This document shows, piece by piece, positions 18,493 to 20,440 of a stretch of 36,270 nucleotides of DNA. The position numbers and the translations under genes are program-made. The stretch lies in assembly GCA_947458625.1 (NCBI GenBank), contig CANGZN010000005.1, forward strand, positions 1 to 36,270, written 5' to 3'. The notes under the pieces are model-generated. The model made no database searches, was not told the origin of the DNA, and was given only the letters and a program-made list of their open reading frames with translations. Within the stretch, counting starts at the first letter, position 1. Every line of letters starts with the position of its first letter. Source of the DNA: Chitinophagaceae bacterium. Lineage in GTDB: Bacteria; Bacteroidota; Bacteroidia; Chitinophagales; Chitinophagaceae.

Positions 18493-19710
18493 TTAACTTC
18501 TCCAAAGCAAACTACTATCACCATAGCTCAAAAAGCGAAAATCGTTCTCCATCGCATAGGAATAGACTCTCCTCCAGTCCTCCCCGATAAAAGCAGAAAT
18601 AAGCAAGAGTAAAGTAGATCGGGGTTGATGAAAATTCGTGATGATGCCGTCTGCCATTCGAATCTGATAGCCGGGCGCGATCAGTAGCTCGGTACGCGAC
18701 CACAAAGAGTCGATCCCGTTATTATCCATTTTTTTCATGAGGGCTTCGATCGCCGCAGGCACGGAAACCGGATCGGGTGTTTCATAGGGTTCCCATTGTG
18801 TCAGCAGGTCTAGTGAAGCATGCTGGTTTTGGCAGAGTCGGTTGCCCAGCCAATAAATGGATTCTAGCGTTCGAAGGGTGGTGGTTCCTACGACAACGCG
18901 TTTCCCTTGGTGTTGCAGGAGTTTACTCAGCAAGGATCTTTGTATGTGGATCCATTCTCCGTGCATGGCATGATTCTCCAGCCGATCAGCGGTAACGGGT
19001 TTGAACGTGCCGGCTCCAACATGCAACGTCACTGGCAACGGCTCGATGTTGATTTGCTTCAGTGCCTTCAACACGCTATCGGTGAAATGCAGTCCGGCTG
19101 TAGGCGCCGCTACGGATCCGTTCTGCTGTGCGTAGGTGGTTTGATAATCGGTTTGGTCTGCCTCCTGAGGAGCTCGTTTGATGTAAGGCGGTAAGGGGAT
19201 GCGGCCTGCTCGTTCCAGTACTTCTCCAAAACTGCCAATGGCTTCAGGCCATTCAAATAGAATCTGAAAATCCGTCTCGCCTTTTTCCAGGAGATGCGCC
19301 GTTAGGTATTCCTCCTTTTCGGAGTCCGGAAGCAATAATTGAAGGGGGGTTCCCTTTTTCCATTTAGAGGCACCACCGATCAGACATCTCCAATAAACAC
19401 GTCCCCGAGAGTTCAATGCCATCGAAGGTTCGGAATACATAGGATCGGGCTCCAAACAAAATACTTCTATCCGACCGCCGGTCGCTTTCTCAAAAAGCAA
19501 ACGGGCCGGAATGACTCGGGAATCATTGACACATAGCTGAACGCCGGACCCCAGCTCCTCGGTTAATTCATAGAACGGGCGATGATGTATTTGCCCCTCC
19601 CGATAAATCAATAAGCGGGAATGGTCCTTCGGGTGCACCGGATATGCAGCGATCCGGTCCAAGGGAAGATCGTAGTCAAAAGCGGAAATATCAATCAAGC
19701 GTGGATCCAT
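18493..19710 (-). CDS. queA: S-adenosylmethionine:tRNA ribosyltransferase-isomerase, QueA family
   Basis: FDYDLPLDRIAAYPVHPKDHSRLL, VNDSRVIPARLLFEKATGGRIEVF, GRIPLPPYIKR, GSVAAPTAGLHFT, LHVGAGTFKPV, ITNFHQPRSTLLLLISAFIG, FLSYGDSSLL. Start ATG 19710 (MDPRLIDIS); the upstream ORF extension is probably non-coding. Confidence 0.88.
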   Translation of the reverse strand: MDPRLIDISAFDYDLPLDRIAAYPVHPKDHSRLLIYREGQIHHRPFYELTEELGSGVQLCVNDSRVIPARLLFEKATGGRIEVFCLEPDPMYSEPSMALNSRGRVYWRCLIGGASKWKKGTPLQLLLPDSEKEEYLTAHLLEKGETDFQILFEWPEAIGSFGEVLERAGRIPLPPYIKRAPQEADQTDYQTTYAQQNGSVAAPTAGLHFTDSVLKALKQINIEPLPVTLHVGAGTFKPVTADRLENHAMHGEWIHIQRSLLSKLLQHQGKRVVVGTTTLRTLESIYWLGNRLCQNQHASLDLLTQWEPYETPDPVSVPAAIEALMKKMDNNGIDSLWSRTELLIAPGYQIRMADGIITNFHQPRSTLLLLISAFIGEDWRRVYSYAMENDFRFLSYGDSSLLWRS

Positions 19711-19775
19711 ACGCAACCAACCGTTGTGTGCTGCAAAAGTCACTAAAAAGGCTTGATTAAATCTCAATTCACAGG

Positions 19776-19805
19776 TTTTCCACACTAATCCACATCTAAC
19801 GCACA
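19776..19805 (-). promoter_or_regulatory. Three TGTG-type boxes facing queA (MraZ-like or DnaA-box-like)
   Basis: Minus strand TGTGCGTTA (19805-19797), TGTGGATTA (19794-19786), TGTGGAAAA (19784-19776). Confidence 0.35.
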
Positions 19806-19832
19806 TGAATTTGTCAAAATCATCATCAAAAA

Positions 19833-19867
19833 TCAATGAAACACCATGCAGTAAGGGGTTTCATTGA
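19833..19867. repeat. Inverted repeat in the divergent queA/mraZ intergenic region
   Basis: TCAATGAAAC (19833-19842) and GTTTCATTGA (19858-19867), perfect 10-bp arms with a 15-nt spacer. Confidence 0.75.
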
Positions 19868-19902
19868 ATAGATATGTGGGGATAAATTAACACCCCCCAA
19901 AA

Positions 19903-19936
19903 TTTGGTCTTACGGTGGTAAAAAGTGTTATTTTGT
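19903..19936 (+). promoter_or_regulatory. Candidate dcw/mraZ promoter
   Basis: TTTG (19903-19906), N22, TTATTTTG (19929-19936): one mismatch to the Bacteroidota -33/-7 consensus, 36 bp upstream of the mraZ ATG. Confidence 0.55.
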
Positions 19937-19948
19937 GTCAATGCGGGT
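19915..19948 (+). promoter_or_regulatory. Candidate MraZ operator: G-rich boxes at 10-bp phase
   Basis: GTGGT (19915), GTGTT (19925), GTGTC (19935), GGGTC (19945), each exactly 10 bp apart, overlapping the promoter. Confidence 0.5.
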
Positions 19949-19972
19949 CAATGCCTGCTCAACCTACTGATA

Positions 19973-20440
19973 ATGACCGGTTTCATTGGAGAATACGAAG
20001 CAACACTGGACGCCAAGGGGCGGTTTCTGCTTCCGGCTGGCTTTAAGAAGCAGTTGCCGGAGGGGGAGGGGTTGCAGTTCGTTATGAACCGGGGGTTTGA
20101 GAAAAGTCTGGCGTTGTATCCCATTCGGAATTGGGAGCCGCTTTTTGCCGACATCAGCAAGTTGAATGACTTCGATCCGAAGGTGCGGGAGTTTCGTCGC
20201 TACTTCCTGAATGGGGCGACGATGGTGGAGCCTGATACGGCGGGTCGATTATTGGTGCCACCAAACCTGAAGGGGCATGCCAATCTCCAGCGCGACATCG
20301 TGCTGGTGGCGGCCGTAAACAAGATTGAGATCTGGGATAGTAATACGTACAAGCAGTTCTTTGATTCGTTCTCTCCGGAGGCGTTCAGCAAGCTGGCGCA
20401 AGAAGTGATGGTTCCTAACCAGCACGCAACCGGTCAATAA
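19973..20440 (+). CDS. mraZ: Division/cell wall cluster transcriptional regulator MraZ
   Basis: MTGFIGEYEATLDAKGRFLLPAGFKKQL, RRYFLNGATMVEPDTAGRLLVPPNLKGHANLQRDIVLVAAVNKIEIWDSNTY: duplicated AbrB-like folds, first gene of dcw. Confidence 0.95.
   Translation: MTGFIGEYEATLDAKGRFLLPAGFKKQLPEGEGLQFVMNRGFEKSLALYPIRNWEPLFADISKLNDFDPKVREFRRYFLNGATMVEPDTAGRLLVPPNLKGHANLQRDIVLVAAVNKIEIWDSNTYKQFFDSFSPEAFSKLAQEVMVPNQHATGQ

Follow-up and report, generated by a model that had tools for sequence, protein, structure and literature searches.

A predicted MraZ operator over the dcw promoter of Chitinophagaceae, with a DnaA-box-like array beside it

The locus discussed here lies in a 36,270-nucleotide stretch of DNA from a Chitinophagaceae bacterium, referred to below as the window. 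It raises a simple question. Does the product of mraZ, the first gene of the dcw cluster, act on the promoter from which that cluster is transcribed? The gene itself (19973-20440, + strand, 155 codons for amino acids from an ATG start) is well defined. Its product scores 122 bits against the TIGR00242 profile, for which the curated cut-off is 98, and aligns with E. coli MraZ over 126 residues at 37% identity. A cognate regulator is therefore encoded in the same genome. Profiles identify rsmH, a gene for an ftsI-type penicillin-binding protein, murE and mraY after mraZ, with ftsZ further on; between rsmH and the ftsI-type gene, a small ORF takes the place of ftsL. Upstream, queA (18493-19710) is transcribed from the - strand, leaving an intergenic region of 262 bp. 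The assembly that contains the window is 1.76 Mb long, 72% complete and has one mraZ; its closest named relatives are Chitinophagaceae metagenome assemblies.

An earlier note on this DNA proposed that four boxes in exact 10-bp phase form an MraZ operator over the mraZ promoter. The reading favored here, with a probability of roughly 0.9, is that three of them, the direct repeats GTGGTAAAAA-GTGTTATTTT-GTGTCAATGC (19915-19944), make up a predicted MraZ operator over the dcw promoter.

Three phased boxes and their conservation

The four 10-mers that prompted the proposal are indeed in place: TACGGTGGTA (19911-19920), AAAAGTGTTA (19921-19930), TTTTGTGTCA (19931-19940) and ATGCGGGTCA (19941-19950). 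In terms of box cores, all on the + strand, they correspond to box 1, GTGGTAAAAA (19915-19924, core GTGG), box 2, GTGTTATTTT (19925-19934, core GTGT), box 3, GTGTCAATGC (19935-19944, core GTGT) and a claimed fourth box reading GGGT (19945-19948). Box 1 has the canonical GTGG[T/G]A form that is common to the phylum and E. coli. Even without the fourth, there are at least three direct repeats of the GTGG/TGGG or AAAGTG[T/G] type, boxes 2 and 3 being of the T form. The mraZ gene and the dcw cluster lie directly downstream, with 58 bp from box 1 to the mraZ ATG. Within the window, the pattern GTG-N7-GTG-N7-GTG has one occurrence, at 19915. By itself this is weak evidence, since 0.30 such triplets are expected and at least one is found in 27% of shuffles. 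The array pattern also has a single occurrence in the whole 1.76-Mb assembly, at the mraZ promoter. Its uniqueness in the genome is not certain, since the assembly is 72% complete.

The evidence that carries the argument comes from relatives. Upstream regions of mraZ were collected from 80 named relatives and about 130 further genomes, from genus to phylum level, and compared as two sets, 104 regions from Chitinophagaceae and 104 others from the same phylum. At least three exactly phased boxes are present in 100/104 family regions and 58/104 of the other phylum regions, compared with 0.03% and 0% of shuffles, although the sequences are related and these counts overstate independence. At a distance of 10 bp, the family has 211 GTG[GT] pairs against 1.7 after shuffling, and the 104 other phylum regions have 159 against 1.1. 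The spacings of GTG[GT] peak only at 10, 20 (and 30) bp, apart from a peak at 36-38 that comes from a separate upstream element (see below). For the boxes, then, only 10 bp and its multiples are enriched, and the E. coli control gave the identical period.

An alignment of the family anchored on box 1 is nearly invariant across boxes 1-3 (AAGTGGGAAAAAGTGTTATTTTGTGT). The near-invariant columns of 79 aligned sequences coincide exactly with the three boxes, the flanks being far less conserved. GTG is found in 102, 101 and 104 of the 104 family sequences at boxes 1, 2 and 3, respectively. The position of the array is equally restricted. Among 81 loci, 85 triple arrays are at the mraZ-promoter place and one is elsewhere in 739 kb, with both strands counted, and a strict form of the array occurs once each in 39/61 family genomes and not at all in the reversed control. 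This conservation in relatives is what makes the three-box array decisively real, and with it the proposed operator came through the footprinting of related upstream regions that the earlier note had suggested as a check.

The fourth box did not. At 19945, GTG is found in 2/104 family sequences, the columns hold 0.2-0.6 bits and the alignment is near background, so it is rejected as a conserved box. On the other side of the array, 8/104 family sequences have GTG (as GTGT) one 10-bp step before box 1. A true fourth box of this GTGT form is seen there in Ferruginibacter-like loci (L049, L052, L054, L057, L058, L069, L071 and L079), where it takes the position of the -33 TTTG.

Another part of the original proposal has to be narrowed. 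The GTGT form was put forward as a Bacteroidota variant of the motif. However, in the other phylum members GTG is followed by G in 253 boxes and by T in 21, as opposed to 199 boxes with T and 123 with G in the Chitinophagaceae set. Canonical GTGG[T/G]A boxes are thus the form in most of the phylum. By these fourth-base counts GTGT is a feature at the level of Chitinophagaceae, where boxes 2 and 3 also encode the -7 element.

Among the points that count against the operator reading are the GTGT rather than GTGG cores of boxes 2 and 3 in Chitinophagaceae and the 46/104 sequences from outside the family that have fewer than three exact boxes. Taken across both sets, the comparison points to a real and phylum-wide MraZ operator in Bacteroidota, ordinary in principle and well resolved here, at which MraZ would bind and repress.

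Overlap with the promoter and what it could mean

The promoter had been described as TTTG-N22 followed by a -7 element, and this is roughly right. The -33 element TTTG (19903-19906, + strand) lies within conserved AAAATTTG and is moderately conserved in the family alignment. The -7 element occupies near-invariant columns (19928-19936, + strand) and can be read in two ways. As TTATTTTG (19928-19935) it begins 21 nt after TTTG and has one mismatch to TAnnTTTG, whereas as TATTTTGT (19929-19936) it begins after 22 nt and fits TAnnTTGY exactly. Both consensus forms are from PMC9723704, in which the TAnnTTGY class of Flavobacterium psychrophilum promoters is assigned to a probable alternative sigma factor. 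With TATTTTGT at 19929-19936, the dcw cluster of Chitinophagaceae may be transcribed from something other than a standard sigma-A promoter. The same study places the -7 box at -12 to -5. Set in this way, transcription is predicted to start at about 19940-19941, inside box 3.

The consequence is that the boxes overlie the spacer between the -33 and -7 elements, the -7 element itself and the predicted start. A putative operator in this position is the part of the original proposal that holds up. How might it work? Each subunit of one MraZ oligomer would contact one box. The strict 10-bp spacing would then be explained because the subunits would sit on the same face of the DNA. Since the three boxes cover the spacer, the -7 element and the start, MraZ bound to them could be expected to exclude RNA polymerase. 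In this way MraZ would limit both its own synthesis and the output of the division and cell-wall genes that follow. The coincidence of boxes 2 and 3 with the -7 element would also offer a simple reason for their altered base, which suggests that box sequence is perhaps compromised where a promoter element overlaps.

The same overlap provides the best of the competing explanations. The conservation of boxes 2 and 3 may partly serve RNA polymerase. What if all of it does? In this scenario the block is kept only as a promoter, GTGTTATTTTGTG being the -7 element with the bases around it, and the boxes fall into 10-bp phase by coincidence. The -7 element does lie among the most invariant columns (GTGTTATTTTGTG), and TATTTTGT fits the F. 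psychrophilum class (PMC9723704). However, box 1 (GTGGGAA) is just as invariant despite its position in the spacer. Moreover, the 10-bp period is kept elsewhere in the phylum even though the placement of the array relative to the -7 element differs. Most other Bacteroidia have an array that stops short of the -7 element on its upstream side, the last box typically having its G 15-16 bp before that element, and in more distant phylum members the boxes lie downstream of a TTGACA-type promoter. An explanation by promoter function alone is therefore improbable.

Could a different conserved regulator of the dcw cluster bind the phased boxes instead of MraZ? Binding of MraZ to the boxes is a prediction from sequence, which leaves some room for this idea. 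It is nonetheless even less probable, given that the array and mraZ occur together across the phylum and that box and period are the same in the E. coli array, where the repressor is known to be MraZ. A chance match in AT-rich intergenic sequence, which the shuffles of the window by itself would allow, can be dismissed almost entirely, as it is already refuted by conservation in 104 family sequences and most phylum sequences.

DnaA-box-like sites upstream of the predicted operator

The predicted MraZ operator is not the only conserved feature of the intergenic region. The spacing peak at 36-38 bp reflects a single, reversed DnaA-box-like site, TTATCCCCA (19877-19885, - strand), which starts at that distance upstream of box 1. 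Its forms in the family are TGTGGAAAA, TGTGGATAA or TGGGGATAA. Of 103 family sequences, 88 have before box 1 a site that, on the other strand, differs from TTATCCACA at no more than one position, where 2.4 are expected; 62 of the 88 have it at one offset and 16 have TTATCCACA exactly. The TGTGG at -95 that belongs to this region is unlikely to be a further MraZ box. Its distance to box 1 (36-38) does not fit the 10-bp phase, and GTGG is mostly followed by A there, as opposed to mostly T or G in MraZ boxes.

Further upstream is a tandem array of DnaA-box-like sites (19765-19805, + strand) consisting of CAATTCACA at 19765, TTTTCCACA at 19776, TAATCCACA at 19786 and TAACGCACA at 19797, with spacings of 11, 10 and 11 bp. 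Each unit is about one to three mismatches away from TTATCCACA, the E. coli consensus (PMC8203912). In relatives (L002-L081) the array lies at -155 to -221 from mraZ, in the opposite orientation to the single site at -92 to -96. Tandem pairs 10-11 bp apart are found 89 times in this place and twice elsewhere in the same 81 loci. Pattern searches of two whole genomes (G121 and G014) found their only close pairs of the TTATCCACA type at the array place. Several sites near TTATCCACA are therefore clustered above background, many of them with at least one mismatch. Beside the MraZ arrays of other Bacteroidia stands TTATC[C/A]ACA or TTTTC[C/A]ACA, 35/97 being within one mismatch against 2.8 expected. 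In many genomes of other Bacteroidia (L126-L170), GTT[A/T]T[C/T]AACA is seen directly 5' of the first MraZ box. This may represent either a lineage-specific DnaA box or the site of another factor.

Does DnaA bind these sites? A local consensus was sought in dnaA neighborhoods, and because no box clusters were found there, the consensus was taken from E. coli together with the DnaA signature. The signature GGRDH[ST]TVI[HY] is present in the DnaA of 8 related genomes; dnaA is absent from the window's own assembly, which is 72% complete. On this sequence evidence, binding of DnaA to the array is given even odds.

Other explanations for the upstream array fare less well. The array is probably not a replication origin because GC skew has no switch there (in the window, +0.065 on one side and +0.054 on the other), and 360 kb of relative G022 likewise show none, either at mraZ or at dnaA; in relative G136 the skew is weak. 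Regulation of queA is also unlikely, as most relatives keep the array whether the gene upstream is queA, a different divergent gene or a histidine kinase gene in the same direction as mraZ. Between the two DnaA-like elements there is an inverted repeat (19833-19867, 13-nt arms and a 9-nt loop); an Rfam search of 19500-20050 gave no match. At this place the hairpin is strong in only some close relatives (L002, L003 and L006), with changed stems.

Taken together, an MraZ operator and a DnaA-box array may stand side by side at the dcw promoter in Chitinophagaceae and, differently arranged, in many other Bacteroidia. The chances are about equal for and against DnaA, as an activator, as a repressor or by being titrated, coupling the initiation of replication to the whole operon while MraZ provides feedback. 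If DnaA does bind the array, replication and division could be directly coupled, and this array beside the predicted MraZ operator is the part of the locus most worth following.

Comparison with known systems

The closest parallel to the predicted operator is in E. coli. The portion of PMC8475190 that cites Eraso et al. (2014) describes E. coli MraZ as a repressor acting on MraZ boxes. The upstream region of E. coli K-12 mraZ, run through the same script as a positive control, has GTGGG at -44, -34 and -24. As in the window, there are three direct repeats with an exact 10-bp period immediately upstream of mraZ in the dcw operon, and the proteins share the 37% identity noted above. However, all three E. 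coli boxes are GTGGG and, judging from the sequence, lie downstream of a TTGACA-type promoter. In the window, boxes 2 and 3 are instead GTGT, and a -7 element of the Bacteroidota type overlaps them.

The Mollicutes provide a second parallel. Where PMC8475190 cites Fisunov et al. (2016), the boxes are given as AAAGTG[T/G] direct repeats, which resemble those of the window in having a GTG core followed by T or G. Mollicutes differ in being a separate phylum of wall-less hosts with a four-gene cluster, and M. genitalium is alike in that its sole genomic site is at the mraZ promoter, as in the window's assembly. A search of freely accessible literature turned up no previous description of MraZ sites in Bacteroidota. 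The predicted operator would extend the MraZ feedback site of E. coli and Mollicutes to this phylum, and its footprint is defined precisely enough to guide mutagenesis.

For the upstream sites the comparison is with division genes elsewhere. DnaA boxes have been described at the promoters of ftsZ in Caulobacter and ftsL in Bacillus subtilis (reviewed in PMC8203912). Those cases are alike in that sites near TTATCCACA lie close to the promoter of a division gene. What sets the Chitinophagaceae locus apart is that a candidate tandem array with 10-11-bp spacing, plus one reversed site, adjoins the predicted MraZ operator of a whole dcw operon.
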